A stretch of 64,000 nt of DNA from an uncultured Shimia sp. (GCF_913054185.1 NZ_CAJXIV010000007.1:1-64000), one strand, 5' to 3'. Positions 11,749 through 31,100 are shown, numbered from the stretch's first letter. Numbers and translations: made by a program. Notes: a model not told the origin generated them from the sequence alone.

Positions 11749-12660
11749 CTAAGTGCTGGGCCCAAACCGGCGCCGATATGCTGACGGACTCAACCCGACG
11801 ATCCGCCGGAACACCCGCCGGAAAGCCGTCGCGTCCGCATACCCAACATCCCAGCTGATCCGTTCGAAGCTGTCTCGTGTCAGCTCCAGCCGCGACCGGG
11901 CTAACTCGACCCGTAAACTCTGAATGTAGGTCACCGGCGTTAAACCTGTGGCCTGTTTGAACCGTCGCAGAAAGCTGCGTTCGGACATGCCCGCGCTTTG
12001 CGCCAGTGACGCAATCGAATGTGTTCCGCCAGAGGTGTTTTGAAGCAAGGCCTGCACCCCGGCGATCTGCGTGTCGGAGTGTTTCGTATCGGGGATAAAC
12101 GATGCGTAGTAGCTTTGCGCACGGTCAGGTGGGTCCAGAACAAACATCCGCGCAACGTCCATCATCAGCATGCGACTGCCGAACCGTTGAACCATATGCA
12201 GCGCAAGATCTGTCCAAGCCATGACGCCACCTGCGGTTACAATATCGCCTATGTCGACCAGCAACGGGTCTGTGTCGATCACCGACTTGGGGTATTTTTG
12301 CCGAAACGTGTTGGCATGACGCCAATGGGTTGTGACCCGGCGGTCATCAAGCAGACCAGCTTCTGCCAACAAAAAAGCGCCGGAACAGACAGATGCCATG
12401 ACTGATCCTGCTTTGTGCTGAGAGATCAACTGGGCCCGCCACGCGGAGGGCAGTTCCGGTGGGTCAAGAGACAGCGCAGGCGGTAGGACCACAACGCTGG
12501 GGTAAGCTTGAGGTGTTTGGCAGATGTCGGCCTGAAACAAGAGGCGATCTGAGGATTGAGCAAGACTGTTGGCACACTCCAGCAGATCTTTGAAACCCCA
12601 TAAGGCGGACTTCTGCGAGCCTGGGTAGTCGAGCAACTGGAACGTGACGGTTTCTCTCAT
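11749..12660 (-). CDS. GlxA family transcriptional regulator (DJ-1/PfpI plus AraC HTH)
   Basis: ASVCSGAFLLAEAGLLDDRRVTTHW and C-terminal AraC HTH (FRRVFRRIVGLSPSAYRRRF); start uncertain (ORF open to 12747). Confidence 0.85.
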   Translation of the reverse strand: MRETVTFQLLDYPGSQKSALWGFKDLLECANSLAQSSDRLLFQADICQTPQAYPSVVVLPPALSLDPPELPSAWRAQLISQHKAGSVMASVCSGAFLLAEAGLLDDRRVTTHWRHANTFRQKYPKSVIDTDPLLVDIGDIVTAGGVMAWTDLALHMVQRFGSRMLMMDVARMFVLDPPDRAQSYYASFIPDTKHSDTQIAGVQALLQNTSGGTHSIASLAQSAGMSERSFLRRFKQATGLTPVTYIQSLRVELARSRLELTRDSFERISWDVGYADATAFRRVFRRIVGLSPSAYRRRFGPST

Positions 12661-12806
12661 GGCCGGTGCGTAGCAGTTAATAACCGGCTGCGGCAGAGGG
12701 AAATGTTTGGTGCCGTGCTTGCGGAAACCCTCCGCGCGTTGGCACATTGTTTGGAGGGCAACATCAAAAGCCGTTCACCTAGTCAAATGATGTAATTGCC
12801 ATGACA

Positions 12807-13793
12807 TCACCTGTTTCCGAACCGGCGCCGATATTCGGCGGGAGTGATGCTGGTATTTTTCTTAAACAACCGCCTGAAAAAGCTGATGTTCTCGTATCCG
12901 GATTTGATCGAGATTTCCTCAAACGGGTGAGACGTGTTGATCAGATCGGCTTTGGCGGCCTCTATTCTGACAAGTTGAAGATACCCGATGAACGTCTCTC
13001 CTGTGGCGGCTTTGAAACGCCGATTGAATTGGCGCACACTCAAGCCTGAATGGTCGGCGATAGCTTCCACATCCACGTCGTTCTGAAAGTGCCTGTCGAT
13101 GTGCTCCTGCGCGTCAAGGATCAGCTTGTCACTATGGTTTTTCTCTGGTGTAAAAACCGCGAAGGGCGACTGGGTGATGCAGTCCAGATCCACCAAGGTG
13201 CAGCGCGCACTTTGCAAAGCAACCTCGCGACCAACGTATTTCTCGATCAGATACAGCGAGAGGTTGAGCTCCGCTGAAATGCCCCCGCCGCAAAACAAGT
13301 GTTCCTCATCGGTCACCAACAAATCCGTACGCAGATCAACTTCAGGAAATTGTTTCTTGAATTGGTTTGCCATGCTCCAGTGGGTTGTTGCTGTTTTTCC
13401 GTTGAGCAGCCCGGTGGACGCGAGGGTAAAGGCCCCGGCGCAGACACTGGCAAGATCCGCGCCGTTTTTATGCGTGTCTATCAGCCAGTCCACGCGGTCC
13501 TGATGATCGCGTGCGTTGGGATCAAAGAAAAAACCCTGCGAAGGCACAATGACCAAATCGGGCACATCAACGTCATGCATGGCGCGGCTTGGGACAACAG
13601 GAAACTGATTGATTGCGGTTACGGGTTTTCCGTCAGCGGTGACAATCTCAACTTCAAACAGGGGAGTTGGGCGCTCCCCCATTGCGACGTTCCACAACAC
13701 ACCGGCCTGCAGGAACATGTCCATCGGCGAGGCGATGGATGACAGCACACAATTCTCCGCAGCGAGTATGACAACTCTTTTTGCATTTGACAT
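12807..13793 (-). CDS. GlxA family transcriptional regulator (DJ-1/PfpI plus AraC HTH)
   Basis: MSNAKRVVILAAENCVLSSIASPMDMF...; ASVCAGAFTLASTGLLNGKTATTHW; FFRRLFKKNTSITPAEYRRRFG. Confidence 0.87.
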   Translation of the reverse strand: MSNAKRVVILAAENCVLSSIASPMDMFLQAGVLWNVAMGERPTPLFEVEIVTADGKPVTAINQFPVVPSRAMHDVDVPDLVIVPSQGFFFDPNARDHQDRVDWLIDTHKNGADLASVCAGAFTLASTGLLNGKTATTHWSMANQFKKQFPEVDLRTDLLVTDEEHLFCGGGISAELNLSLYLIEKYVGREVALQSARCTLVDLDCITQSPFAVFTPEKNHSDKLILDAQEHIDRHFQNDVDVEAIADHSGLSVRQFNRRFKAATGETFIGYLQLVRIEAAKADLINTSHPFEEISIKSGYENISFFRRLFKKNTSITPAEYRRRFGNR

Positions 13794-14101
13794 GTCTGAA
13801 TCGGACCCTTTTCGCCCAAAATGGCGCTTATGTAGGGGGCTGTCACCCCCTAACTTGGAGTGCAAGACTTCGAGATCAGCACGGTTCCCAAGGCAAAGGT
13901 TAGAGGACATAGATGAAAATCACCCATCTCAGCATGGACAACCGATTGCGCAATTTCTGTCATTTGTTTGCTTGCAATCCGACCCGCGCCGCGCGTGTGC
14001 CCGACCCTCTACATGCGGAGACCTGCCTGTCAGAGGCAGCTCGGTAAAACCGCACATTCGCTTCCCCCCAATAATGGCCCCATTTGAAAAGGATCTCAAA
14101 A

Positions 14102-14901: not shown

Positions 14902-15492
14902 TCAATGCAGCGTGAACAAGGTCTCTTGACCCGCCACAACGTCGTATACAGCCCCCTGGGGGCGATCCAAAGCCTCTATGTCTTTTTGTAGAAGGCCACG
15001 AATAAGACCGCGGATCATGCAAAGGGTCACGGAATGAGACACAAGGATGGTTGGGCGCTCCAATCCACTTAGAAATGTCTCACATCGGTCGCGCAGGATG
15101 TCATAGCCTTCACCGCCTGGTGCCGTCAGGAAGAGCCGCATCAACTCGCTGTCTTCAAAGGCGTCGTCGGACCCCACGATTTCCCGGTAGGTTTTGCCTT
15201 CCCAATCCCCCGCATTGATCTCTGCCACCAAAGGGTCAAGCCGGGGCAGTTTGCCAACCGAGCCAAGCGCAATCCGCGCGGTTTCTTGGGCGCGGCCAAG
15301 CGGGCTGCACACCGCATCAAAGCGCTCAATGCCGTTGATTTGTTTCAGGATCGTTCCCTGTTGGCGGGCCTGCGCCCGCCCCAGGTCCGTGAGGGGTGAG
15401 TTTTTGCGCCCCTGAAGCCGGCCCTGCCGGTTCCATTCCGTTTCGCCGTGACGCAACAGAAGCAGGCGGGGGCCGGTGTAGCTAAAGCTCAT
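14902..15492 (-). CDS. Histidine phosphatase (phosphoglycerate mutase-like) family protein
   Basis: LLLRHGETEWNRQGRLQGRKNSPLTDLGRAQA; 4-bp ATGA overlap with the upstream ABC ATPase gene. Confidence 0.88.
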   Translation of the reverse strand: MSFSYTGPRLLLLRHGETEWNRQGRLQGRKNSPLTDLGRAQARQQGTILKQINGIERFDAVCSPLGRAQETARIALGSVGKLPRLDPLVAEINAGDWEGKTYREIVGSDDAFEDSELMRLFLTAPGGEGYDILRDRCETFLSGLERPTILVSHSVTLCMIRGLIRGLLQKDIEALDRPQGAVYDVVAGQETLFTLH

Positions 15493-16550
15493 GAGGCAAC
15501 AATCACCGCTTCATTGGTGTTGACCTTCAGATGTACGTCGCTGCCAGTGTCGCGCCAGTCATGCCCAACATGGTGGAACTGATCGACAATCATCTCTGTA
15601 CCTGACGTACGCACAATGTAGCGAACCTGGCTGCCCATGAACTCTCGGTGCAAAATGGTGCCGGGCAGGGTGTCTGCCCCCGCCTGATCCACGATCTGCA
15701 TGTTCTGTGGGCGCAGAACAATGGAACCTGCACCCTCGTGACCGTCACTGAGAGGCAGCACATCGCCGGCGCTGGTGCGGAAACGTTTGGCACCTCCATT
15801 ACTTTCCACTTGTCCACCGAGGATATTGGCGGTGCCCAGAAACTCAGCCACAAACAGGTTTTCCGGCGTGTCATACAGCACCTGAGGTGTGCCGATCTGT
15901 TGGATCACCCCTTTGTCCAAAACCGCCATGCGATCTGCAGTGGTGTTCGCCTCTTCCTGATCGTGGGTCACAAAGATGGTGGTCAGGCCCAGCTTGCGCT
16001 GCAAAGCCAGCAATTCGCGGCGCATTTGCACCCGCAGGCTGGCGTCCAGGTTGGACAGTGGTTCGTCCAACAGCAGCACCTCAGGTTCCACAACCACAGT
16101 GCGGGCCAAAGCGATCCGCTGCTGTTGCCCACCAGACAGCTGGTTGGGCATGCGGTCCGCCAGATGGCTCAATCCCACAAGTTCCAGCGCGGCGTCTACC
16201 CGTGGCGCAATCTCCGATGCAGGCATTTTGCGTTCTCTGAGACCAAAGCCGACGTTGTCCCGCACCGACATATGTGGCCACAGCGCGTAAGACTGGAACA
16301 CCATACCCACATTGCGTTTCCACGGCGGCAGGCTGACCACATCTCGCCCACCAATGTGGATGCTGCCTTGCGGTGTTGGCCCAAACCCCGCGATGGAGCG
16401 CAAGAGCGTCGATTTACCTGAGCCAGAGGGCCCGAGGAAGGCGAAGAACTCGCCCGGTTGAATGTCGAGGTTCACCCCGGTCAACACCTCGGTTTCGCCA
16501 AAGGAGAGGTGCAGATCGTTGATTTCAATTCCGACCATTTGATTTGTCAT
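15489..16550 (-). CDS. ABC transporter ATP-binding protein (PotA/FbpC/AfuC-like, with TOBE-type C-terminus)
   Basis: Walker A GPSGSGKSTLLRSIAG, signature LSGGQQQRIALAR, Walker B LLLDEPLSNLD. Confidence 0.92.
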   Translation of the reverse strand: MTNQMVGIEINDLHLSFGETEVLTGVNLDIQPGEFFAFLGPSGSGKSTLLRSIAGFGPTPQGSIHIGGRDVVSLPPWKRNVGMVFQSYALWPHMSVRDNVGFGLRERKMPASEIAPRVDAALELVGLSHLADRMPNQLSGGQQQRIALARTVVVEPEVLLLDEPLSNLDASLRVQMRRELLALQRKLGLTTIFVTHDQEEANTTADRMAVLDKGVIQQIGTPQVLYDTPENLFVAEFLGTANILGGQVESNGGAKRFRTSAGDVLPLSDGHEGAGSIVLRPQNMQIVDQAGADTLPGTILHREFMGSQVRYIVRTSGTEMIVDQFHHVGHDWRDTGSDVHLKVNTNEAVIVAS

Positions 16551-16570
16551 AGTTCTATACTCCCGCACGC

Positions 16571-18322
16571 TTAGTGCGACTGATCCGTGGATTTGAATTT
16601 TTTGTCGCGCTCAATCATCAGCTGCGACAGGAAGGTGCCGAGGCCGACGATGATGACAGCAACCACACCAAGGGCTGCGCCAGCACCACGTCCAGACGGC
16701 GTTTGCATGAAGAGGTAGATGCCATAGGCCAGCGGCGCGTCACTTTCTGAGCTCACCAGCATGATGGTGGCTGAGAGTTCCACAGCCGCAGTGGCAAAGG
16801 AGGTCACAAACCCCGCCAGAATGCCGCCTGACATCAGCGGGATCACAATTCGGCGAATGGTGGACCCTTTGGTTGCGCCAAGGCTTTCCGCAGCTTCTTC
16901 CAGCGCCTGTGACACCTGTTGCAAGGCGGCGGTACAGGCCCGCAGTGCGTAAGGCAGGCGGCGGATCATCAAGGCCAGTGCAATGATCACCCACCAGCTG
17001 GCCATCGGTTTGTCGGTGAACGGGATGTCGATGGAGTGGAACACGCGCAGGTAACCAATACCCAGAACCACACCCGGCACAGCCAAAGCGGCGGTCGCGA
17101 GGTAGTCCAGAGACTTACGGCCCCAGATGCCGGTCCGGATCACGATATAAGCAATGGCTGTGCCAATGATCACGTCGAGGACGGCCGCGATGCCGGCATA
17201 GATCACCGTGTTGGTGATGAACTGCTTCGAGTTCTCCCACATCACGACGTAGTTCTGCAGCGTGAATCCGTCTGGCAGCGGTGCAAAACTCCAGATGGTG
17301 GCAAAGCTGAGCAGGGTCAGACCGATGTGTGGGCTGAGCACCAAAATGAGGATAAACGCCACAACCGCATAGGCGGCAATCTTCTCCCCGGTGCGCAGGT
17401 CACGTCGAGACAGACCGCCGCCACCTTTTTGCACCGTGGAATAGTCTTTGCCGCGCATCACAAGGAAGGACGCCCAGAGCGAGAAGATCGAGAAGGCCAC
17501 AAGGATAAAGCTGATCACATAGCCCATAGGGTCGCTGATCCCAATCGAGCTGATCCGCAGGAAAGCCTGTGGCGCAAGCATGTTGTTCACGTTGAGCAGC
17601 AGCGGTGTTCCGAGATCGTCAAACACTTTGATGAACACCAGCGCGGCACCCGCCACATAACCCGGCATGGCCAGCGGGAACACAATCCGGCGGAACAGGC
17701 GCATGCCTTGGGAGCCAAGGTTTTGTGCGGCTTCTTCCATAGAGCGGTCGATGTTGCGCAGGCTGGTCGACAGGTTGATCAGGATAAACGGGAAGTAGTG
17801 GATCGACTGAACAAGGATCACCCCGTTGAGCCCTTCCATGAAGGGGATGTTGACGCCAAACTTCTCTTCTATGAGCAGGTTGAGCGTACCGTTGCGGCCA
17901 AAAATCAACTGCATCGCCACGGCGCCCACAAAGGGCGGCATGATCAATGGGATGAAACCCAAACTTTGGATCACCACGGATCCGGCAAAGTTGAAGCGGG
18001 TGGTGATATAGGCCAGCGGCAGCGCAATGACAGTGGCAAACACCACAGACATGGCGGAGACGTAAAACGAGTTCCAGAAGCTTTCGCGGAACAGCGAGGT
18101 GCGGAAGAAATCCACAAAGTTTTGCAGCGTCAGTGCGCCGGTGTTGGGATCGAGAAAGGCGACGTAGATCACCTGAAAGACGGGGATGATCAGCAGACCG
18201 ATCAAAAGGATGGCAATGATCAGCGCGGCGGCATGAAGGCCGGTGACGCGCGGAAAGATCGACGCCGGGAGACGGTCAAGCAGAGACGGACCGCCGGTGT
18301 TGTGCGGCGAGGCATTCGACAT
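16571..18322 (-). CDS. ABC transporter permease, two fused permease domains (FbpB/AfuB-like)
   Basis: 583 aa; two EAA-like loops (MEEAAQNLGSQGMRLFRRIVFPLAMPG and LEEAAESLGATKGSTIRRIVIPLMSGG). Confidence 0.9.
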   Translation of the reverse strand: MSNASPHNTGGPSLLDRLPASIFPRVTGLHAAALIIAILLIGLLIIPVFQVIYVAFLDPNTGALTLQNFVDFFRTSLFRESFWNSFYVSAMSVVFATVIALPLAYITTRFNFAGSVVIQSLGFIPLIMPPFVGAVAMQLIFGRNGTLNLLIEEKFGVNIPFMEGLNGVILVQSIHYFPFILINLSTSLRNIDRSMEEAAQNLGSQGMRLFRRIVFPLAMPGYVAGAALVFIKVFDDLGTPLLLNVNNMLAPQAFLRISSIGISDPMGYVISFILVAFSIFSLWASFLVMRGKDYSTVQKGGGGLSRRDLRTGEKIAAYAVVAFILILVLSPHIGLTLLSFATIWSFAPLPDGFTLQNYVVMWENSKQFITNTVIYAGIAAVLDVIIGTAIAYIVIRTGIWGRKSLDYLATAALAVPGVVLGIGYLRVFHSIDIPFTDKPMASWWVIIALALMIRRLPYALRACTAALQQVSQALEEAAESLGATKGSTIRRIVIPLMSGGILAGFVTSFATAAVELSATIMLVSSESDAPLAYGIYLFMQTPSGRGAGAALGVVAVIIVGLGTFLSQLMIERDKKFKSTDQSH

Positions 18323-18426
18323 GGGAAAGTACCCGAGAATTTAGAGGAAGGGTGGCTTTGGTGCCGGGGAGTGACCTGCACCAAAGCGGGGGGGCGAGGC
18401 GGCACAAGCCGCCTCGGGAGGTGCCG

Positions 18427-19752
18427 TTACAGAGCGGCGGCTTGGTCAGCCAGCTCTTTGGCTTTGCGGTAATTTTCAACCACCATAGCGTCCCAACGCT
18501 GTTCAACTTCGGCCTGACGCTCGCCAACCGTATCGGAGGCTTTCTTGCGCTTCTTGGTGAAGATGCCAGCGAACTCTGCGTCCATTGATTTGGCTTCGTC
18601 AATTGGGTTGGCGTCGATCAGGGCACGGGCCTCTGCGATCAGCGCCTTGGCTTCAGCGTTGTCCCCACCGGCATGTTTGGCTTCTGCCGCTTGTACAGCG
18701 CCCACGGCGGCGCGCAGATCATCCAAGCGGTAGGTGATCATCACGTCAAACATCGAATTCACGAGGTTGTAACGCGCACCGGATTTGGCCACGTCGAACT
18801 TTACTGCTGCGCCAATAGAGCCATCTTCAAACGGGTTTGGGAAGCCTTCTGGCGCATTTGTGTAAGTCGCTGGGTTGATGGGCAACCGCATGATCGCTGG
18901 GTCCAGAAGCACTTCCTGACCAGCTGGCGTCAGCAGGTATTCCACAAAAGTTTTGGCAGCCGCTTCATTTGGGGCATTTTTCACCACAGCGATGTTGGCT
19001 GGTACCAAGGCAGTGACCTCAGGATACGCGAAGTCGACAGGGAAACCGGAGGCTTTGGAGCTAAAACCAAAGAAGTCGATCACAATACCAAGGCCAAAGT
19101 TGCCGGTGTTCACGCCGTCTGGCACGCCAAAGGAGCGCTCGGTCACGGTGGAGAAGTTGCCGCCGATCCATTTCCATTCCGCCCAGCCTTTGTCCCAGCC
19201 TTCACCCTGCAAAACCGTTTCAACGGTCAGGTGCGTGGTGCCGGAGCGCGACGGCGCAGACATGCCAACGTGGCCATGGTATACGGCGTCTTTCAATTCC
19301 GCCCAGTTTTTGGCCGGCTCAAGCTTCTTTGCTTTCAAATAGCGCTCGTTCCACATGATGCCGTAACCCGCAGCGGCAAAACCAAAGTATTTGCCATCCG
19401 GGTCGTTCATCGGGTAAGCGCCGATTTTTTCAGGAATGCCGTCTGAGCTGATCTCAACCGAGGCCAATAGGTCGTCGCCCTTGAGCACCTCAAATGCATC
19501 TGGAGCCGAAGCCCAGAAGATGTCCGCCGTGTTGGCGTCCGAAATCTCTTGAATGTATTTTACACCAGCGGACGTTTTTTTGTTCAGGATCTCCAGGTCG
19601 ATGCCGGGATTGGCCGCTTCAAAAGCTGCCTCAATCGGGCCGGTCATCGAGTTGGGGAATGAGGTGACCACAACCACTGTGTCGGCCGCCAAAGCTGCGG
19701 ATGCAGAGCTCAGGGCCAGAGCGGCCACAGATGCGCGAAAAGTTTGTTTCAT
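18427..19752 (-). CDS. ABC transporter extracellular substrate-binding protein (AfuA/FbpA-like)
   Basis: Signal peptide MKQTFRASVAALALSSASAALA; type 2 periplasmic binding protein; strong RBS GGAGGAAA. Confidence 0.88.
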   Translation of the reverse strand: MKQTFRASVAALALSSASAALAADTVVVVTSFPNSMTGPIEAAFEAANPGIDLEILNKKTSAGVKYIQEISDANTADIFWASAPDAFEVLKGDDLLASVEISSDGIPEKIGAYPMNDPDGKYFGFAAAGYGIMWNERYLKAKKLEPAKNWAELKDAVYHGHVGMSAPSRSGTTHLTVETVLQGEGWDKGWAEWKWIGGNFSTVTERSFGVPDGVNTGNFGLGIVIDFFGFSSKASGFPVDFAYPEVTALVPANIAVVKNAPNEAAAKTFVEYLLTPAGQEVLLDPAIMRLPINPATYTNAPEGFPNPFEDGSIGAAVKFDVAKSGARYNLVNSMFDVMITYRLDDLRAAVGAVQAAEAKHAGGDNAEAKALIAEARALIDANPIDEAKSMDAEFAGIFTKKRKKASDTVGERQAEVEQRWDAMVVENYRKAKELADQAAAL

Positions 19753-19760
19753 ATTTTCCT

Positions 19761-19797
19761 CCCATTGATGGGCAACACAAGTATAGCCCATCGATGG
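19761..19797. promoter_or_regulatory. Predicted sigma70-like promoter of the ABC operon flanked by two CCCATYGATGG elements
   Basis: Minus-strand -10 TATACT (plus 19780-19785) with candidate -35 at 19803-19808 (17-bp spacer); CCCATTGATGG 19761-19771 and CCCATCGATGG 19787-19797. Confidence 0.4.
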
Positions 19798-19866
19798 CCA
19801 AACCCTAACGATCCAATAATAACAGGCTCAATCGGTGATTTTGAAACGGGTTTGATTGAGAATTTG

Positions 19867-19904
19867 GGTCAGTTTTGACACGCTCATTTGTGTCACATTT
19901 GACC
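19867..19904. promoter_or_regulatory. 38-bp interrupted dyad GGTCA..TGACAC-8bp-GTGTCA..TGACC, candidate regulator site
   Basis: Concentric inverted arms sharing one centre, upstream of the substrate-binding protein gene and just past the response-regulator stop. Confidence 0.5.
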
Positions 19905-19906
19905 GA

Positions 19907-21154
19907 TCACTCTTCGATGCCGCAGTGCTTCAGGCGCAGATACAATCGCTTGCGGGGGATGCCGAGCAGATCGGCCGCTGCCGCCTTGCGCCCACCACTC
20001 TGAATCAACGCGCTGCTCAGCAGTTCCCGTTCGTGGCGCAGCATTGCATCGTCATAGGTCTCGGTGATTTGCGCTGTCACCCGTTCGTCCAATCGTATGG
20101 TCAGTCCAACCACCAGTTTCTCCGCCACATTGCGCAGTTCCCGCACATTGCCCGGCCAGGTGTATTTTCCCAGCGCGTCCAGATCCGGGACCGGCAACGC
20201 TTTCTGCGATTTGCCATGGCGGGCGGCAGCACGCTGGATAAAATGATCCAACAGGACAAACACATCACGCCCCCGTTCTTTAAGCGGCGGCAACTCAATC
20301 TGTGCCACATTGATCCGATACAGCAGGTCGCTGCGCAGCATGCCCTCAGCTAGCAGCTCTTCTGGCTTTTGACTGACCGAGGCCACCACACGTGGCGCAT
20401 CAACACTGTCAAAAATGCGCAAAATCTGCGCCTGCAATTGATCGGAGAGGGCTTCAATGTCTTGCAGATGCAATGTGCCCCCGAATGCGCGGGCCACTGC
20501 GCCGCCTTCGTCAAACAGCGTGCGTTCGATTGTGTCCGGTGATACGGCGGAGCAGTTGAAAACAACAAATTTTCCAGCCGCGTTTGGGGACAGGTCATGA
20601 ATCGCCCGCGCGGCGGCGGTTTTACCGGTGCCGTCTTGCCCCCAAATCAAGACGTCTACCTGTAATGGGGCCACGGCCTGAATGTCGCGCCGCACAAACC
20701 GCATGGCGCTAGACCGGCCAACCAGCCGTTCTTCCAAAGGCAGCGTGGCCCGGGCTTTGTGTTGGAGATTGGTCAATTCGACCTGCAGGCTGCGCATTTT
20801 AAGCGCCCGCAGAACCACCTGATGCAAATGATCCGGATGGACCGGTTTCTCCAGAAACTCAAAGGCGCCATTGCGCATGGCTTGAACCGCGACCGGGACA
20901 TCTCCGTGCCCCGTGAATAAAATCACTGGCACGTCTGGGGCCAGTCGCTTGACCTCTTGCTGAAAGGCCAGGCCATCCATACCAGGCATGCGAATATCAC
21001 TGAGGACAACGCCTCGCCATTCCGGATCAAGCGCTTCAAGCGCGTCGGCCGCACGCGCAAACCCACGAGCCGATATCTTGTGTTTGTGAAATGTGTCTAA
21101 CACAGCTTCGCGCAGGTCATCGTCGTCATCCACAAGGAATATCTGCGCCTGCAT
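19907..21154 (-). CDS. NtrC/DctD/PgtA-type response regulator lacking the GAFTGA loop
   Basis: Receiver VLSDIRMPGMDG, AAA+ GQDGTGKT, WPGNVRELRN, Fis-type HTH; region between TLFDEGG and GGTLHL is shortened. Confidence 0.88.
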   Translation of the reverse strand: MQAQIFLVDDDDDLREAVLDTFHKHKISARGFARAADALEALDPEWRGVVLSDIRMPGMDGLAFQQEVKRLAPDVPVILFTGHGDVPVAVQAMRNGAFEFLEKPVHPDHLHQVVLRALKMRSLQVELTNLQHKARATLPLEERLVGRSSAMRFVRRDIQAVAPLQVDVLIWGQDGTGKTAAARAIHDLSPNAAGKFVVFNCSAVSPDTIERTLFDEGGAVARAFGGTLHLQDIEALSDQLQAQILRIFDSVDAPRVVASVSQKPEELLAEGMLRSDLLYRINVAQIELPPLKERGRDVFVLLDHFIQRAAARHGKSQKALPVPDLDALGKYTWPGNVRELRNVAEKLVVGLTIRLDERVTAQITETYDDAMLRHERELLSSALIQSGGRKAAAADLLGIPRKRLYLRLKHCGIEE

Positions 21155-21158
21155 TTTG

Positions 21159-23159
21159 TTAATCCCCTCCGCGTAAAACAAGCGTTGCTGTGGCCCCGGG
21201 AGCATCCTCATTTGGGGTCAGCCGCAGATCGCCGTTTAAGTCTTTCATGATGTTGTAGGAGATCGAAAGGCCAAGTCCCAGACCCTTTCCTACCTCTTTG
21301 GATGTCACAAAAGGGTCCAACGCGTCTGAAGCTGGAATGAGGTCAAAACCAGCGCCGTTGTCGCGCACGAAGAGTTGGACGGAGCCACCCACTCGTTTGG
21401 CCGAGATGTTGATCTGTCCCGGACGGTCGGCCTGCTGGATGGCGTCCAGCGCATTGGACAGGATGTTGACCAGCACTTGCTCGATCAGAATCTTGTCTCC
21501 AATCACGCTCGTGTCGGCCAATGTGCTTTGAATGTGCACTTGGACATCCTCTTGCGCCACCCGCGCTTTTAAAAGCGCTAGCGAGTCCGCCACCACTTCG
21601 TCCAGAGGCAAGCGGTCTTCACTGAATTCGGAGCGCCGCGCAAAGTTGCGCAGATATGAAATTGTCCGAGTCATACGGTCTATCAACCCATCCAGACGCG
21701 ACATTTGACGTTTGACCATCTCGCCATCACCCTCAGCCACATAGTCTTCCAGCAGGCTTAACCGATGTTGCATTGCCGCCAACGGTTGGTTCAACTCATG
21801 CGCAATACCTGCCGACATTTGCCCGAGCGCGGCCATTTTGCCGGCTTGGATCAATTCCATTTGTGTTTGCTTAAGTGTCTCCACCGCGCGGCGGCGTTCC
21901 TGAACTTCGCTCTCAAGGGACGCCAGCGCAGCGTCGCGTGTTTCAATGGAGCGTTCAAATTCGGATATGGCCACCGAGAGTTGCACAATCTCGTCGTCTT
22001 CTTTGTTTGGTGGCAATTTTAAATTCTGACCCTGCGCAATGTCGCTGAGTTTTTTGGTCATTTGCCGCAGCGGGCGCACAATGCCGCTGCGCACATAGCC
22101 AAACAAAACGCCCACCCCAACAAAAGCGGCCAATATGGTCAAACCAACCAGCCAACGGATCGCCACCGCAGACGCCCGGCGCGCACGATCTGTGTCATCC
22201 AGAATGCGCGCCCGCTGTTCTGCGCCTGCGGCAGACAGGGTTGATTGCAGTTTGCTAAGGTCGGCTTGCAACGAGGTCAGGCTGGTCAGGACTTGTGCCT
22301 GCCCCTCAAGCCAGCCACGGCGCAGGCTGAAAATGCCTGCCTTGCTGGTGGCCACCGGAACCAACGCGTCCACCGATTGGCGCAAAGTGGCGAGTTCCGG
22401 TTTGTGGGGTAATTGTTGTTGCAACAGCGACATGCGCACCAGCGCATCATCTGTCAAACCACGCAGTTGCTGCAGCCGTGGCAGGCTTTCGGCAACCGCG
22501 GCCTGAAACACCAGTGTCGCGGCATTGGCTGTGCCATCCCCCAGTCGCCGGACTGTGTCCCTCTGGCGGGCCTCTTCTTCGATCAAAGTCGCCTGACGTG
22601 CTCGGAAACTGGCATCCGCGCTGTTGACGATGCTGCTCATCGCCAGCGAGATGTTGAAGGAAAAGTCACTCAGAAGTGGATCCACTTCGTCCTGAACATC
22701 GGCATTGAGCCACCGCAGCGCGTTCAACTGCGTACCCATTTGGTGCTCTGCCCGCGAAATCGCCGTTTGCAGCGCCTGAATATGGCTCAACTCGTCTGTG
22801 ACATGGGTGACAACCTCGGCAGCGTCATTGGTTTCGCTGGTTTTGGTGATGGCATCGAGGCTGCTTATCAGCGCACTTTTGATGTCCAGGAATTCGTCAC
22901 TGGTGCTCGCATCTGTGCTTTGCCCCACAATCTGCGTGGCCATGGTGGACAGTTGAGCGGAGTGTTCGGCCAAAGCGCTCACTGCCGCCAATGCGGGGAT
23001 TTGTTCCGACGCGATGGCGGCATAGTCGCGCTGGGCTTTCAGGAAGAACACAATTGAGACTGCCAGCACCAGCCACACGATCAGGATGATTCCTGAAATG
23101 CTGAGCAACAATCGGTTCCAGACTGACGCGCGGGGGCGTTTGGGGAAAACAGCCCGCAT
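21159..23159 (-). CDS. Membrane sensor histidine kinase (DctB/PgtB-like)
   Basis: TM segments, HAMP-like region, H-box MAALGQMSAGIAHELNQPLAAM, DNGAGFD, GKGLGLGLSIS. Confidence 0.9.
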   Translation of the reverse strand: MRAVFPKRPRASVWNRLLLSISGIILIVWLVLAVSIVFFLKAQRDYAAIASEQIPALAAVSALAEHSAQLSTMATQIVGQSTDASTSDEFLDIKSALISSLDAITKTSETNDAAEVVTHVTDELSHIQALQTAISRAEHQMGTQLNALRWLNADVQDEVDPLLSDFSFNISLAMSSIVNSADASFRARQATLIEEEARQRDTVRRLGDGTANAATLVFQAAVAESLPRLQQLRGLTDDALVRMSLLQQQLPHKPELATLRQSVDALVPVATSKAGIFSLRRGWLEGQAQVLTSLTSLQADLSKLQSTLSAAGAEQRARILDDTDRARRASAVAIRWLVGLTILAAFVGVGVLFGYVRSGIVRPLRQMTKKLSDIAQGQNLKLPPNKEDDEIVQLSVAISEFERSIETRDAALASLESEVQERRRAVETLKQTQMELIQAGKMAALGQMSAGIAHELNQPLAAMQHRLSLLEDYVAEGDGEMVKRQMSRLDGLIDRMTRTISYLRNFARRSEFSEDRLPLDEVVADSLALLKARVAQEDVQVHIQSTLADTSVIGDKILIEQVLVNILSNALDAIQQADRPGQINISAKRVGGSVQLFVRDNGAGFDLIPASDALDPFVTSKEVGKGLGLGLSISYNIMKDLNGDLRLTPNEDAPGATATLVLRGGD

Positions 23160-24439
23160 CAGTCGCGCACCACGTCTCGTGCCGCACGCCGCTCCAATAC
23201 CCGTAACAACACGTCTGCCTCATGCAAAATGTCGCGTGACGCCCCGCGCCAAACTTGCAAGCTGGCTTCTTGGCGGTCTGACAAAGTGGCAAAAGCATTG
23301 CCATTGGTGGCCCGCCCTTCGTTGCCAACATCGTCCTCGCCAATCGGCAGGGAAGTCAAAAGACGTTGAATGTCATTCATCTCCACAGTCGGGGCATCGT
23401 GTTGCGCTTCCAAAACACGCAGCCTGCGCCAAGCCTCACGGCGCGTCTCAAACACTTCAAACACAAAGGCATCAAACAGCGCGTTCACGGCCCAGTACCT
23501 TTCACTGGCCAAAGCCGCATCATATTCCAACCAATTCAACGTCAACGCATCTTCCAGGACTTGGTGATACGGGGCGGTGGCTTCCGCCCGGATACTGGCG
23601 GAATGTGGCGTGCGCGCAATGTCTGGTGTCATCAACAACCTTTGGCCCGCATCAGAAACCACAAAATCAACAAACTGGCGGGCAGCTGCCGGTGCGTTCC
23701 CACCCGTCAGAATACCTATCCGCGCTGAGGTGACCATAACCGGTGTGCCATAAACAAATGTCAGATCTTCCTCCGCCCGTGCATGGGCCAGAAAATCGAT
23801 CGTTAAACCAATCTCAAATCGCCCATTGGCCACCCCATCCAACACGGTGAAGCTGCGCGCAGTGATGGTGCTCAGGTTGCCCGCCAGCTCCAGCAGGTAG
23901 GCCCAGCCCTCCTGCCAGCCGCGCACCTGCAACGTGCGTTCCAACATCATATGGGTCGAGCCGGAGCGTGATGGACGCGCCATGGCAATGGTCCCGGTTT
24001 TGTCCGCCGCCAAAAGAGCTTCCCAGTCTGCGGTTTTCGAAACAGGGCTTGCACGTTTTTGGGTCCAGCCCAAAGCGGAGTAAGCAAAGGAATTCACCGC
24101 CGGTGCACCGGAAGTTTCTGACACCGCCAGATGTCCATTTTGGTGCAACAGCTCAAACGCTTCCGGAGAGGAGGACCAAAATACATCAAACTGCCGCTCA
24201 TTGCCGCGCAGCAACTCATCCACGGAGGCATTGGTGTTTTTGTTGAGCATGGCAACTTCGATATCCGGAAAAAGTTCGCCAAACGCTGTCACAAACGGTT
24301 GATAAAAACTGGGGGGCATAGACGTCAGCACACGCAGTTGGTCCGCCTGTAGCGGCGCACCAATCACCCCAATGCAAAGCGCGGCAAGTGTCAGTGATTT
24401 TGTCAGCCATTTTCCTGCTGTCCACATTGGATATGTCAC
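23159..24439 (-). CDS. Extracellular solute-binding protein, probable signal sensor (PgtC-like), paralogous to 18427-19752
   Basis: RPSRSGSTHMMLERTLQ..GW..GW....GN.STITARSF aligns with SGTTHLTVETVLQGEGWDKGW..GNFSTVTERSF of the transporter binding protein; overlaps kinase start; start uncertain. Confidence 0.8.
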   Translation of the reverse strand: MTYPMWTAGKWLTKSLTLAALCIGVIGAPLQADQLRVLTSMPPSFYQPFVTAFGELFPDIEVAMLNKNTNASVDELLRGNERQFDVFWSSSPEAFELLHQNGHLAVSETSGAPAVNSFAYSALGWTQKRASPVSKTADWEALLAADKTGTIAMARPSRSGSTHMMLERTLQVRGWQEGWAYLLELAGNLSTITARSFTVLDGVANGRFEIGLTIDFLAHARAEEDLTFVYGTPVMVTSARIGILTGGNAPAAARQFVDFVVSDAGQRLLMTPDIARTPHSASIRAEATAPYHQVLEDALTLNWLEYDAALASERYWAVNALFDAFVFEVFETRREAWRRLRVLEAQHDAPTVEMNDIQRLLTSLPIGEDDVGNEGRATNGNAFATLSDRQEASLQVWRGASRDILHEADVLLRVLERRAARDVVRD

Positions 24440-24654
24440 TGCGCGCCTCCCCAAGCCCACGCGGTCCTTCCTCTTGGCAGTGGGGCAGGTCGCGTGATTT
24501 GGCAGCATAGCGTGCACTTGCAGGCTGGCAACCGATGACGTGAGATATGCAATTTGCGGGAAAACGCGCAAAATTCACCAAGTTTGCATGTGTCCTTTCT
24601 CGGATGTACGTTGGGAAAACGCGGGCAAATTGCTGATATGAATTGGGGTAAGGT

Positions 24655-25161
24655 ATGGAAAAACGACGGATTGTATCATCACGGCACTTGGCGGAAGGCG
24701 AAGGCTGGGAGGCCTCTGAAGTCGAATACGGCATGATCATTGCCTACAACGCGTTCTCGCGTTGGATGACACGCTGCATGGCGGCGGCAGGCAACGCTGA
24801 TATGACGCCTTTGGAAATTTTGGTGTTGCACAATCTCAATCACAGAGATCGGGATAAGCGGCTGACAGACATCGGTTTTTTGCTCAACATAGAAGACAGT
24901 CACACGGTGAATTACGCCCTCAAAAAACTGTTGAAAATGGGCCTGATCGAGTCTGAAAAGCGTGGGAAAGAAGTGTTCTATCGTCCCTCGGAAGCCGGCA
25001 TCGCGCTTTGCGAAGACTATCGCACTGTACGGGATCGTTGCTTTGTTGAAGGGCTCTCGCGCCTGGATATGACTGGAGACGACATGCGTGACATCGCCTC
25101 CAGTCTGCGTTTGCTATCTGGCCAATATGATCAGGCCAGCCGGGCCGCCGCCTCGCTTTAG
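24655..25161 (+). CDS. MarR/winged-helix transcriptional regulator
   Basis: MTPLEILVLHNLNHRDRDKRLTDIGFLLNIEDSHTVNYALKKLLKMGLIESEKRGKEVFYRPSEAG wHTH. Confidence 0.8.
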   Translation: MEKRRIVSSRHLAEGEGWEASEVEYGMIIAYNAFSRWMTRCMAAAGNADMTPLEILVLHNLNHRDRDKRLTDIGFLLNIEDSHTVNYALKKLLKMGLIESEKRGKEVFYRPSEAGIALCEDYRTVRDRCFVEGLSRLDMTGDDMRDIASSLRLLSGQYDQASRAAASL

Positions 25162-26459
25162 CGGCTCATCAGTTCGGGCAAGTAGGTCACGATCTGCGGG
25201 AACACCGCGATCAGAGCCACACCCAGAAGCAGCAACAGGAAGAAAGGGAAGGCCGCTTTGGCCACCTCTAAAATGTTGATGCCGGTCATGCCTTGGATGA
25301 CAAACAGGTTGAATCCTACCGGTGGGGTGATCTGGCTCATTTCAACCACAACCACGAGGTAGATGCCAAACCACAGCGGATCGATACCCACGGCGGCGAT
25401 CATTGGCATGATGATCGACGTGGTCAGCACAACCACCGAAATGCCGTCTAGGAAGCAGCCCAGAATGATAAAGAAGATGGTGAGCGCAAACAGCAGCATC
25501 GGTGCCGACAGGTTCATGTCCGCAATCCATGTCGCGAGGTTGCGCGGCAGGCCGGTGAAGCCCATCGCGACCGACAGGTAGGCCGCGCCCAATAGGATGA
25601 AGGCAATCATGCAGGATGTGCGGGTGGCGGACAGCAAGGCGTCCATAAAGAGCTTCCAGCTGAATCCGCCCGACAGCCAGGCCAGCAAAGTTGCCAGCAC
25701 CACGCCAAGTGCGGCTGCGTCCGTGGGTGAGGCCAATCCGGTGTAGATCGAGCCAATCACGCCAATGATCAGCAGGGCCACTGGGATCAGGTTGCGTGAG
25801 GCTTTGATACGCTCCACAAAGCTGAATTGGCGCGCTTCTTCTGGGATTAGCTCCGGGTTCATCCAAGCGCGTACAGCCACGTAGCCCGCAAACAGAGTAA
25901 TTAGCATGACCCCGGGCAAGACGCCTGCGATGAACAGGCGGGCGATGGATTGTTCGGTGGCCACGCCATAGACAATCAAGATGATCGACGGCGGGATCAA
26001 CAGGCCCAGCGTGGCAGAGCCTGCCAGTGTGCCAAGGATCAGGCTTTGCGGGTAGCCGCGTTCCGTCAGCTCCGGCACTGACATCCGGCCAATTGTGGCG
26101 GCGGTGGCGGCCGAAGAGCCCGAGACGGCGGCAAAGATCGCGCAGCCAAAAACATTCACATGCAAAAGCCGTCCCGGCGCGCGGCCCAGCCATGGTGCAA
26201 GGCCAGAGAACATGTCGTTGCTCAATCGTGAGCGTAAGAGGATTTCCCCCATCAGGATAAACAGGGGCAGGGCGGTCAGCGCCCAGCTGTGGGAATGCCC
26301 CCAGAGCGTGGTGGCCAGCACCAGTCCAGCTGGCGCGTTGGAGAACGCCAACAGCGCCACAAGCGCCACAACACCCAGTGAAATGGCGACCCAAAGGCCA
26401 GCCGCCAGGCAGAGGAGAAGCAGTCCAAGCAGGACCAATGCAATGAGCGGATCAGCCAT
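25158..26459 (-). CDS. TRAP transporter large permease (DctM)
   Basis: 433 aa multi-TM; PPSIILIVYGVATEQSIARLFIAGVLPG and TPPVGFNLFVIQGMTG motifs. Confidence 0.92.
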   Translation of the reverse strand: MADPLIALVLLGLLLLCLAAGLWVAISLGVVALVALLAFSNAPAGLVLATTLWGHSHSWALTALPLFILMGEILLRSRLSNDMFSGLAPWLGRAPGRLLHVNVFGCAIFAAVSGSSAATAATIGRMSVPELTERGYPQSLILGTLAGSATLGLLIPPSIILIVYGVATEQSIARLFIAGVLPGVMLITLFAGYVAVRAWMNPELIPEEARQFSFVERIKASRNLIPVALLIIGVIGSIYTGLASPTDAAALGVVLATLLAWLSGGFSWKLFMDALLSATRTSCMIAFILLGAAYLSVAMGFTGLPRNLATWIADMNLSAPMLLFALTIFFIILGCFLDGISVVVLTTSIIMPMIAAVGIDPLWFGIYLVVVVEMSQITPPVGFNLFVIQGMTGINILEVAKAAFPFFLLLLLGVALIAVFPQIVTYLPELMSR

Positions 26460-26462
26460 GTT

Positions 26463-26987
26463 TTAGACCTCGTCTGGTGTGTTGAGCACGGAAGATCCCG
26501 TGGTGATCAGGTCAAAAAGTGTGTGCAGAAGTGCGACAAGCAGCAGTCCCATGCCAAAGGTCATGGCCAACTGTGGTATCCAAAGCGGCACAGGAATGAT
26601 GCCGTTGGACACATCGCCGTAGTGCAAGCTTTCCCATACCAGCGCACCGCAGAAATAGAGGGCAAATGCAACAAAAGCGCTCGCAATCAGCAAGGTGACA
26701 CCTTCGGCCAAAATAACCAAGCGTGGGGACAGATGTTGCATCACCAAATTGACGCGGATGTGCCCACCAGACCGTAACGTGTAGGCCATGGCGAGGAACG
26801 TCGCACCTGCCAACATGAAGCCCGCAAAATCAGCGTAAGATGGGATCGTCGAGGGCAACATGCCGGGCATCAAACGGCCCATGCCGTTGAGCACAATTTG
26901 CGTGCTGATTAGCAGGCAGATCGCCAAGATCAGAAAAGCACTGAACATCCCCGCGGCCTTATAGGTTGCGTTTAGAAAACGGCGCAT
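26463..26987 (-). CDS. TRAP transporter small permease (DctQ)
   Basis: 4 TM segments, adjacent to dctM; start MRRFLNATYK. Confidence 0.85.
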   Translation of the reverse strand: MRRFLNATYKAAGMFSAFLILAICLLISTQIVLNGMGRLMPGMLPSTIPSYADFAGFMLAGATFLAMAYTLRSGGHIRVNLVMQHLSPRLVILAEGVTLLIASAFVAFALYFCGALVWESLHYGDVSNGIIPVPLWIPQLAMTFGMGLLLVALLHTLFDLITTGSSVLNTPDEV

Positions 26988-27018
26988 GACAAACCTCTCC
27001 CCATCGGTTTGGTGGTAC

Positions 27019-27054
27019 AAAAAAGACCGGCGGCACGGGGTGTCGCCGGTCTTT
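27019..27054 (-). terminator. Rho-independent terminator/attenuator between dctP and dctQM
   Basis: 11-bp perfect stem AAAGACCGGCG/CGCCGGTCTTT (extendable) followed on minus strand by T6. Confidence 0.85.
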
Positions 27055-27066
27055 CATACGTGGTGC

Positions 27067-28026
27067 TTATTGCTGGTAAGTTGTCAGGATAGACAGAGCT
27101 GCGTCAGACGCATTGCCTTTCCAGTTGTCCAGCATTTTGGTGCCGATGCCCTGCAGGCCTTCGACCAGAGCTGCGCTTGGCGCGTAAACAGTGATGCCGT
27201 TGGCTGCCAGCTCTGCGGTTTTTGCCTCAGCTTCCGCTGCAGACATCTCCCAACCGCGGGTTTCAGCAGTGGCTGCTGCTTCCAGAACGGCCGCTTTGGT
27301 GTCATCGCTCAGCTTGTCAAACACACGCTGGTTCACAACAACGATGTTCTTTGGCACCCAGGCATTGATAGGGCTGTAGTGGGTGACAAAGTCCCACGCA
27401 GTGGAGTTTACACCGGTGGATGGCGAGGTGATCATCGCCTGTACCTGACCAGTGGAGAACGCTTGCGGGATGTTGGAGGCTTCCACCTGTACCGGCGCAG
27501 CACCTGCCAGCGTGGCAAACTCTTCCAATGCGGCGTTATACGCACGGAAGCGCAGGCCGTTCAGGTCGTCCACAGTGGCAATTTCGCCATTGGTGTAGAG
27601 ACCTTGAGCAGGCCATGGCACGGAGAACAACGGCACCAGACCCTGTTCCGCCAAAAGCTCAGTCACAACCGGCTTTTGCGCGTCCCACAGCTTTTTGGCT
27701 TCGTCATAAGAGGTCGCAACCAGCGGCTGGCTGTCGATGCCATAGGCCAGATCTTCGTTGGACAGGCGGGACAGGAAGAATTCACCAGCTGGCACCTGAC
27801 GTGAGCGCACAGCGTTTTTGATCTCCGCGTGTGGGATCAGCGAACCTGCGGTGTGCAGAGTGATGTCGAGATCGCCATTGGTGGCCTCACGTACATCATC
27901 GGCAAACTGCGCGATGTTCTGAGTGTGGAAAGTGCTGTCGCCATACGGCGTTGGCATGTCCCATGCGTCTGCATAGGCTGGGGCGGCGCAGGCCAGCGCC
28001 GCCGAAAAGGCGATTACATGTTTCAT
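27067..28026 (-). CDS. TRAP transporter substrate-binding protein (DctP)
   Basis: Signal peptide MKHVIAFSAALACAAPAYA; LNGLRFRAYNAALEEF conserved Arg motif. Confidence 0.9.
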   Translation of the reverse strand: MKHVIAFSAALACAAPAYADAWDMPTPYGDSTFHTQNIAQFADDVREATNGDLDITLHTAGSLIPHAEIKNAVRSRQVPAGEFFLSRLSNEDLAYGIDSQPLVATSYDEAKKLWDAQKPVVTELLAEQGLVPLFSVPWPAQGLYTNGEIATVDDLNGLRFRAYNAALEEFATLAGAAPVQVEASNIPQAFSTGQVQAMITSPSTGVNSTAWDFVTHYSPINAWVPKNIVVVNQRVFDKLSDDTKAAVLEAAATAETRGWEMSAAEAEAKTAELAANGITVYAPSAALVEGLQGIGTKMLDNWKGNASDAALSILTTYQQ

Positions 28027-28068
28027 AGGTTGCTCCCTGTTCGTTTTTACGATTCTTACAATTACATT

Positions 28069-28089
28069 ACGTTGACAAATTGTCAGCGT
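28069..28089. promoter_or_regulatory. 21-bp palindrome ACGTTGACAAATTGTCAGCGT (one mismatched pair), candidate MarR-type operator
   Basis: Core TGACAA-A-TTGTCA in the divergent dctP / 5-oxoprolinase intergenic region. Confidence 0.6.
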
Positions 28090-28132
28090 TATAAACATAA
28101 AGCAACTATAAAGTTGATTCGAGGAGAACGGC

Positions 28133-31100
28133 ATGTCGACGCAACCAGCAGAGAAGTGGCAGTTTTGGGTCGATCGTGGCGGCACGTTCACAGACATTGT
28201 GGCCAAGGCTCCGGACGGTGCACTGCATAGCCATAAGCTCTTGTCCGAAAACCCAGAAATCTATCGGGACGCGGCAGTGCAGGGCATACGCACCCTGTTA
28301 AATCTGGATGCTGACACGGCGATTCCAGAGGGCAAAATTGCGGCCGTAAAAATGGGCACTACAGTGGCCACCAACGCGCTTTTGGAACGCAAAGGCGAGC
28401 CGGTGCTGCTGCTGATCACCAAAGGTCTGCGCGATTTGCTGCGGATTGGGTATCAGAATCGCCCGAAACTTTTTGACCTCGACATCCAACTGCCGGAACT
28501 CCTCTATGATGAGGTCATCGAAATTGACGAGCGTCTGGATGCAGATGGCAATATCATCACCGAACTGGACGAGGATGCCGCCCGCGCTGCGCTGAGTGAG
28601 GCTCACGCAAAAGGCTTCCGCTCCGTCGCCATCGCCCTCATGCACGCCTATCGCTTCCCGGATCACGAACAGCGCCTGGGCAAACTGGCCGAGGACATCG
28701 GTTTCTCGCAAATTTCTCTCAGCCATGAGGCCAGCCCGCTGATCAAATTGGTAGGCCGAGGCGACACCGCTGTGGTCGACGCGTATCTCTCCCCAATCTT
28801 GCGCCGCTATGTGGATCAGGTAGCTGATGCTCTGGGCGCGGACCAAGGCGGCTGTGACCGGCTGATGTTCATGCAGTCCAACGGTGGTCTCACTGACGCA
28901 AGCCTGTTCCAGGGCCGCGATGCTATCTTGTCTGGCCCGGCAGGTGGCGTGGTCGGCATGGTGCGCTCTGCAGCGGAGCTGGGTTTTGAAAAACTCATCG
29001 GCTTTGACATGGGCGGCACCTCCACCGACGTCTGCCACTACGCAGGCGAATATGAGCGCTCTTTTGAAACCGAGGTTGCAGGTGTGCGCATGCGCGCGCC
29101 CATGATGTCGATCCACACTGTGGCCGCGGGCGGCGGCTCGATCCTGTCCTATCGTGACGGCCGTATGCAGGTGGGCCCTGAAAGCGCCGGTGCCAATCCC
29201 GGCCCCTGCGCCTACCGTCGCGGTGGCCCGCTCACCGTCACCGATTGCAACGTCCTACTGGGCAAGCTGCATCCGGACCACTTCCCTCATGTCTTTGGCC
29301 CAAATGGCGATCTGCCGCTGGATGCCGACGCCGTACGCACCAAATTCGAAGCGCTGAAAACCGAGATTGGCACCGATAAAACGGTGGAAGATCTGGCCGA
29401 AGGTTTCCTGCGCATTGCCGTGGAGAACATGGCCAATGCGATCAAGAAGATCTCGGTACAGCGTGGCTATGATGTGACCCGCTACACCATGAACTGCTTT
29501 GGCGGCGCGGGTGGGCAGCACGCCTGTCTGGTTGCCGACGCGCTGGGCATGGAAAGCATCTTTATCCACCCGTTTGCCGGTGTGCTCTCTGCCTTTGGCA
29601 TGGGGTTGGCCGATATTCGCGCCATGCGTGAAGCCCAACTTGGCTGCGCATTGGAAGACATTGGCGCTGCAAAGCAACTGGCCGAGATCGCCGCCGCCGC
29701 CCGTGCGGAAGTTGCCAGCCAAGGTGTGGCCGAGGCGGACATCATCGTGGAGCAACGCGCCCATATTCGTCCAAAAGGCGCCCAACAAAGCCTGCCGGTC
29801 GATTTTGGCAACGCCGACAAAATGCGCGCGGACTTTGTCACTGCCCACAAACAACGCTTTGGCTTTGCCCCTGACACCGACGATCTGATTATCGATGTGT
29901 TGGAAGCGGAGGCCGTGGGTCAAACTGGCGAACCGGTCACGATGCCCAACCCCACTGGTGGCACGCGCACCGACGCAACTGTGCCGTTCCACCTCAACGG
30001 TGGTTGGCAGGACATTCCTCTGGTTGATCGTACTGCCCTGGCCATTGGTGACAGTGTCACCGGTCCAGCAATCCTGACCGAACCCACTGGCACCAACATG
30101 ATCGAAGACGGGTGGCAGGCCACCTGCGCGGCGGGCGGCAACCTCGTCCTCAAACGCATTGTGCCGCTGGCCCGCAAAGAGGCGATTGGCACTTCGGTGG
30201 ATCCGGTCATGTTGGAGGTGTTCAACAACCTCTTTATGTCGATTGCCGAACAGATGGGCGCAACGCTGGCCAACACCGCCTATTCGGTGAACATCAAAGA
30301 GCGGTATGATTTCTCCTGCGCGATGTTTGACCAAAGTGGCGATCTGGTGGCCAACGCGCCGCACGTGCCGGTGCACCTCGGATCCATGTCTGAAAGCGTG
30401 CGCACTGTGCTGCGCACCAACGCCGGAAAAATCCGCCCCGGCGACGTCTTCATGATGAACAACCCGTTTAATGGCGGCACCCACCTGCCGGACGTGACGG
30501 TGATCACACCGGTGTTTGACGCTGCGGGCGAGAACATCCTCTACACAGTGGCGTCTCGTGGTCACCACGCCGATATTGGCGGCAAAACCCCGGGCTCGGC
30601 CCCACCGGACAGCCGCACTATCGACGAAGAAGGCATCGTGATCGACAACTTCCTGTTGGTGGATCGCGGCACCCTGCGTGAAGAGGCTGCGCGCGCGTTG
30701 CTGGCGTCTGGTCCTTTCCCGTGTCGCAACGTGGATCAGAACATGGCAGATCTCGCGGCACAGGTCGCGGCCAATGAAACTGGCGCAACCGAGCTGCGAA
30801 AAATCACCTCGCAATTTGGCCATGGCACCGTGCAGGCCTATATGGGCCACGTGCAGGACAACGCAGAAGAAAGCGTGCGTCGCGTGCTCGACGTGCTGCA
30901 TGATTGCAGTTTCTCTTATCCACTGGATGACGGCGCAAAAATCGAGGTGGCAATTTCTGTCGACAAAGCATCCCGCAGCGCCACCATCGATTTTACTGGC
31001 ACGTCAGACCAAAGCCCGCTGAACTACAACGCCCCGATGGCAATCTGCCGCGCGGTGGTGCTCTATGTTTTCCGCACCATGGTCGGCAGCGACATTCCGA

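Follow-up and report, generated by a model that had tools for sequence, protein, structure and literature searches.

Phosphoglycerate (PGA) elicits a response of the pgt system in Salmonella, whose transporter takes up both PGA and phosphoenolpyruvate (PEP) (PMC11077982, PMC10715179). In the binding protein AfuA, His205 and Glu229 are required for sugar binding (PMC4546632). Within the enhancer-binding protein family, HupR, TyrR and DhaR have lost both the GAFTGA loop and sigma-54 dependence (PMC3162934). The locus considered here lies in a window of 64,000 nucleotides, the whole stretch of DNA that was analyzed, from a Shimia genome whose nearest named record is S. sagamensis, to which the importer binding protein described below (SBP2) is 98% identical.

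Layout, homologies and distribution of the unit

Seven genes lie on the minus strand in two blocks separated by a gap of about 150 bases. The first block encodes SBP1, a periplasmic binding protein resembling the Pgt sensor component PgtC (23159-24571; PF13531, 1e-16), HK, a PgtB-like membrane histidine kinase (21159-23159; HATPase_c and HisKA), and RR, a PgtA-like response regulator (19907-21211; Response_reg, Sigma54_activat and HTH_8). The second encodes SBP2, the importer binding protein with a PgtC-type C-terminal extension (18427-19791; SBP_bac_6, 1e-20), a fused permease (16571-18322; two BPD_transp_1 domains), an ABC ATPase (15489-16568; TOBE domain) and a cytoplasmic histidine phosphatase (14902-15492; PF00300, 5e-36) with RHGE and SPLGRA motifs, which is placed in branch 1 of the histidine phosphatase superfamily by a Pfam His_Phos_1 score of 124.6 bits (cut-off 21.7). 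Translation likely begins at ATG 24427 for SBP1, which a sequence-only reading of this DNA had begun at GTG 24439, at 21154 for RR, and at ATG 19752 for SBP2, preceded by GGGAGG at 19763-19758. That reading had otherwise described the minus-strand set, its position and its domains as they are found here, and the two gene overlaps that it had claimed are real: the HK start and SBP1 stop share one base (TGATG), and the phosphatase start overlaps the ATPase stop by four (ATGA). It had also called the two binding proteins paralogues of each other, which is borne out along the full mature length, both by direct alignment (33% over 353 aa, E 3e-55) and by a profile-profile comparison spanning 388 columns, C-terminal extension included (probability 100%, E 6.5e-77). 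An Rfam scan of the region found nothing. Elsewhere in the window are a large ORF in which the domains POR (pyruvate-ferredoxin oxidoreductase) and DUF6537 were recognized (42043-45456) and two similar-looking tandem minus-strand genes (11749-13910), of which the first scanned codes for a regulator of the AraC type with a DJ-1/PfpI domain.

As a yardstick for the sensor, the E. coli pgtP-pgtC-pgtB-pgtA cluster (NZ_CP082773) was reached by a distant DNA search. Its pgtC-pgtB-pgtA order is that of SBP1-HK-RR, and the three products align in turn with SBP1 (30%, E 1e-32), HK (26%, E 7e-39) and RR (31%, E 2e-59), so that the Pgt-like three-part sensor proposed beforehand is supported. The top NCBIfam models are NF047794 (PgtB) for HK, at 207 bits under a cut-off of 1000, and NF047793 (PgtA) for RR, at 272 bits under a cut-off of 650; because these equivalog cut-offs are missed by a wide margin, the window proteins are Pgt-like and not Pgt proper. 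A PgtB above the family cut-off was found in none of 299 sampled genomes of the phylum and in none of 198 of the Vibrio-side order.

Relatives of the unit were collected as 80 named loci from a scan of 84,980 genomes, with further loci added from genome samples and annotated plasmids. Among the 113 loci tabulated, a sample biased to close relatives, in which near-duplicates are counted (e.g., L114/L115 and L166/L171) and gene starts are set by motif, SBP2-permease-ATPase is the conserved unit; the importer is immediately preceded by the Pgt-like sensor in 55, and 58 have no adjacent sensor. In Shimia the unit is patchy, as a near-identical SBP2 is present in five of 23 other sampled genomes, with a contig-end fragment in one more. 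The gene order recurs in dozens of alpha-, beta- and gammaproteobacterial genomes amid differing flanking genes, which speaks for a functional unit over a neighborhood shared by ancestry; the seven-gene arrangement is not due to chance. Identity of at least 61% links window SBP2 to each of 31 relatives, which come from several groups of proteobacteria, and more than 120 positions are invariant; one substrate class is therefore likely to be common to these 32 proteins. Copies of the proteobacterial-type unit were also seen in records labeled as Enemella evansiae (Actinomycetota; L118) and as a Euryarchaeota bin (L143), where contamination or mis-binning is probable.

Operator dyads, regulator loop and promoter

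The interval from the RR stop codon to SBP2 contains a 16-bp dyad, GGGTCA-N4-TGACCC (variant GTGTCA-N4-TGACAC), usually in two copies 23-24 bp apart. In the window, dyad 1 (CGGTCAAATGTGACAC; 19890-19905, minus strand) stands immediately past the RR stop and is kept in relatives, and dyad 2 (GTGTCAAAACTGACCC; 19866-19881, minus strand) follows 24 bp from it. A genome-wide search found the exact dyad once in the source genome, as dyad 2 (19881-19866); allowing one mismatch gave about twice the control count, mostly noise, and the exact site alone is informative. At a fixed score the dyad was present in 42 of the 55 loci with an adjacent sensor vs. two of the 58 without (37/41 vs. 2/39 among the first 80 loci), an association for which the Fisher p of about 1e-16 is overstated, as related loci are counted separately. 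One of the two dyad-bearing loci without an adjacent sensor (L162) has a regulator about 3 kb upstream. A diverged dyad, GTTACC-N4-TGACCC, was recognized by eye at the same position in Hyphomicrobiales and Azospirillum loci. The shared operator thus supports the proposal that the sensor is wired to the importer, and the link between regulator and importer holds as far as sequence can tell, the importer promoter bearing a putative RR site. Many Rhodobacterales loci (in the set L106-L120) carry the dyad upstream of SBP1 as well, about 4.7 kb upstream of SBP2, suggesting that the sensor operon may be autoregulated; the Shimia window was found to have none at that place. A second exact copy of the dyad (GTGTCAAAGCTGACCC) occurs in two Shimia genomes (G010:C2:590672 and G017:C33:47154). 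A MarR-like gene and a DctP-type TRAP transporter adjoin the unit (24655-28206) and are retained there in other Shimia loci; with no dyad near them, they are probably separate from it.

The description of RR as an NtrC-type regulator applies to its NtrC-like domains but not to its contact with sigma-54, as the alignment shows the P-loop kept and the GAFTGA loop deleted, and RpoN (TIGR02395) is absent from six Shimia genomes, among them the source genome, which is 94% complete. From the missing loop and the missing RpoN, the Shimia regulator is predicted not to be sigma-54-dependent. GAFTGA is also missing in E. coli PgtA and in Rhodobacterales, Alcaligenaceae and Halomonas relatives, and is borne by those from Maritalea, Azospirillum, Ensifer, Chelatococcus, SAR324 and others. 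RpoN was likewise absent from the tested Zongyanglinia, Parasedimentitalea, Roseovarius, Aliiroseovarius, Tritonibacter and Gemmobacter genomes, except for traces in three. The tested loop-bearing genomes contain it, as do those of loopless Alcaligenaceae, Halomonas and Pseudotabrizicola, so that its absence does not explain every case. A separate observation concerns E. coli PgtA (pgtA, L181:5841-7088), in which residue 173 is the central glycine of the P-loop GAPGTGRM. The loss-of-function change Gly173Asp of S. Typhi PgtA has been placed in the sigma-54 interaction domain (PMC11077982); provided that the numbering agrees, it would hit the nucleotide-binding loop and not that domain.

The promoter of the importer differs with the loop. 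A -24/-12 box precedes SBP2 in 21 of 21 loop-bearing loci vs. two of 34 loopless ones, both imperfect, and the near-identical Shimia loci had none scored ahead of SBP2; the dyad is present in all 34 loopless loci. Three of the 58 loci without an adjacent sensor also carry the box: L162 and L185 have a loop-bearing regulator a few kilobases upstream, and L187 is on an Aminobacter plasmid that carries another homologous binding-protein locus elsewhere. In loopless loci, the distance from dyad 2 on to a TTGA- or TTGC-type -35 element is 33-35 bp for many Rhodobacterales and 23-25 bp for the Alcaligenaceae group, two spacings that differ by one helical turn. The window offers a candidate sigma-70-type promoter, TTGAGC-N18-TAGGGT (19802-19831, minus strand; -35 at 19831-19826, 18-bp spacer, -10 at 19807-19802), whose -35 lies 34 bp past dyad 2, within the distance of other Rhodobacterales; the sigma-70 sites of loopless loci are weak matches, and some loci have other best sites. 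As the tree requires about two loop changes and an independent-pair test of loop vs. promoter is without power, the match between loop and promoter reflects few events; its strength is that the box is kept in every deeply diverged loop-bearing lineage.

Binding proteins, phosphatases and the favored ligand

SBP2 aligns with E. coli PgtC over 411 aa (28%, E 2e-45) and scores 128 bits with PgtC vs. 39 with AfuA, and a C-terminal extension common to SBP2, SBP1 and PgtC is absent from AfuA; by such comparison SBP2 is nearer PgtC than AfuA or the pyridoxal 5'-phosphate (PLP) binder P5PA. The structural matches of the AlphaFold models (pLDDT 88.9 for SBP2 and 84.6 for SBP1) are led in both cases by AfuA, VcA0625 and P5PA, binders of glucose 6-phosphate (G6P) or PLP, ahead of most or all iron binders: SBP2 is closest in fold to AfuA with G6P, with P5PA seventh, and SBP1 to P5PA, the top match, and AfuA. 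The Ser-Gly-Thr phosphate loop of AfuA (148-150) is found in SBP2 as S183 G184 T185, invariant in 32 SBP2 sequences. R219, S183 and D239 are identical in 74 of 74 sequences (32 importer, 39 sensor and three PgtC), in which R182, T185 and H187 are near-universal; the position of R182 is Ser in AfuA. A pair of arginines with a histidine next to the phosphate loop would be in keeping with a ligand that bears both phosphate and carboxylate. The fold and pocket thus support a phosphate ester as the class of ligand. A segment around Y143/N148 is lost in the sensor SBP1 of the loopless clade and retained in the importer SBP2, and the specificities of sensor and importer could therefore differ.

The importer is quite unlikely to be a genuine hexose/heptose phosphate transporter of the AfuABC type, as might be supposed from AfuA with G6P as the top fold match of SBP2 and from the conserved SGT loop. 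Of the AfuA triad His205, Asp206 and Glu229 (residue roles, PMC4546632), SBP2 keeps Asp206 alone, as D239, and has Ile and Val in place of His205 and Glu229, in addition to the extension that AfuA lacks. The importer had been called Afu-like beforehand, a description that survives for the fold and the phosphate loop but not for the binding protein, which is PgtC-like. Transport of Fe(III) is more doubtful still and may be considered very improbable. The permease is auto-annotated as an "iron ABC transporter permease" in plasmid records, and iron-binding proteins occur among the fold matches of SBP2; however, they rank below the phosphate-ester binders that come first for both binding proteins, and the tyrosine pair of FbpA/HitA aligns with F240 F241 in SBP2 and with Phe-Leu in SBP1. 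Iron-coordinating tyrosines, named beforehand as evidence that would speak against organophosphate uptake, are therefore absent from both. The best NCBIfam names of the importer parts, PhnS2 for SBP2 (101 bits, cut-off 393), PhnU2 for the permease (171, cut-off 593) and PhnT2 for the ATPase (354, cut-off 458), would suggest 2-aminoethylphosphonate as the substrate. However, all three scores are well under the equivalog cut-offs, and in the loci examined no phosphonate-degradation gene was recognized beside the importer, where phosphatases are found that leave C-P bonds uncleaved, so that this substrate seems highly unlikely.

Of the readable sensor loci, 33 of 53 have a histidine or HAD phosphatase in the slot past the ATPase, vs. 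four of 42 others; Azospirillum and Chelatococcus have both types, and the HAD proteins of L172 and G352 exceed the cut-off for phosphoglycolate phosphatase, with those of Maritalea close to it. That this slot is filled repeatedly by phosphatases of two unrelated families is indicative of a phosphate monoester, and dephosphorylation after uptake, as had been predicted, is supported by these non-homologous enzymes, with their activity inferred. Other genes found past the importer encode pyruvate kinase (Pseudochrobactrum, L107, L108 and L118), a PdxH-like protein of the pyridoxal 5'-phosphate synthase family (Paracoccus denitrificans, L128 and L125) and a member of the L-fuculose-phosphate aldolase family (L134). 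The PdxH-like genes, together with the rank of P5PA, first among the structural matches of SBP1 and seventh among those of SBP2, bring in the main rival, in which a vitamin B6 phosphate, either pyridoxal or pyridoxine 5'-phosphate, serves as the ligand, the phosphatase yields the free vitamer and PdxH-like partners interconvert its forms. This is unlikely, as PdxH appears in just three sampled loci, phosphoglycolate-phosphatase-like and pyruvate kinase genes do not encode B6 enzymes, and a dedicated two-component system would be unusual for a vitamin; further, P5PA is 54% identical to AfuA (PMC8427247), and SBP2 is nearer PgtC than either.

A small C2-C3 phosphocarboxylate (3- or 2-phosphoglycerate, PEP or phosphoglycolate) fits best and is favored over B6 phosphate, hexose phosphate, 2-aminoethylphosphonate and iron, and the evidence on the C3-C7 phosphorylated compound of the sequence-only reading leans to this class. 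One point stands against PGA and PEP as carbon sources, namely that their use needs no phosphatase, and the phosphatases would therefore better fit phosphorus scavenging or phosphoglycolate.

Proposed mechanism and comparison with known systems

The gene order, homologies, conserved operator, loop loss, RpoN absence and phosphatase recurrence observed here suggest a model by which the unit may operate. In this model, a small phosphate ester would be bound in the periplasm by SBP1, which would then activate the membrane kinase HK, and HK would phosphorylate RR. RR could then bind the two dyads just behind its own gene and activate the promoter ahead of SBP2, which would be of the sigma-70 and not the sigma-54 type. 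Import of the intact ester would fall to SBP2 together with the fused permease and the ATPase, and the cytoplasmic histidine phosphatase would then release its phosphate. We consider the scheme as a whole, with a C2-C3 phosphocarboxylate as the likeliest ligand, to be reasonably probable. A broader proposal is put forward more tentatively, and may well prove too wide: that the unit represents a widespread, undescribed class of phosphocarboxylate ABC importer with a Pgt-type sensor and a dedicated phosphatase, in one branch of which the sigma-54 loop was lost and the importer moved to a sigma-70 promoter with the operator kept, the Pgt system of E. coli and Salmonella being a relative with an MFS antiporter. 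No description of ABC uptake of phosphoglycolate, phosphoglycerate or PEP was found in the literature searched. The Pgt-type sensor is of a known kind; what is new is its wiring to a PgtC-type ABC importer and a phosphatase, and the apparent change of sigma factor in the Shimia branch. The proposal would provide marine and soil bacteria with dedicated, induced uptake of small organophosphates through an ABC importer that goes under the label "iron" or "phosphonate" in databases. It would also show the PgtC-type binding-protein sensor in a natural setting, next to an importer whose own binding protein is homologous to it, and offer a single locus at which the regulator's loss of sigma-54 can be followed together with operator and promoter.

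The Shimia unit shares with PgtCBA-PgtP of Salmonella and E. coli the order of the sensor components, the homology of all three and a regulator without GAFTGA, and E. coli carries the same dyad (GTGTCACAATTGACAC) between pgtP and pgtC. However, Pgt drives an MFS antiporter, whereas the Shimia sensor would drive an ABC importer with a PgtC-like binding protein, plus a phosphatase. UhpABC-UhpT is alike in that an external organophosphate induces a transporter via a two-component system (general knowledge; PMC10715179), but its sensor belongs to another family and its transporter is of the MFS type. With AfuABC and P5PA the unit has in common the binding-protein fold and the SGT phosphate loop; it differs in lacking the sugar-binding His205 and Glu229, in its extra C-terminal helical extension and in its dedicated Pgt-like sensor. 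Like HupR, TyrR and DhaR, the Shimia regulator is without GAFTGA, but here relatives that keep the loop and a sigma-54 promoter regulate the same importer, and the switch of sigma factor is thus traceable at one locus.
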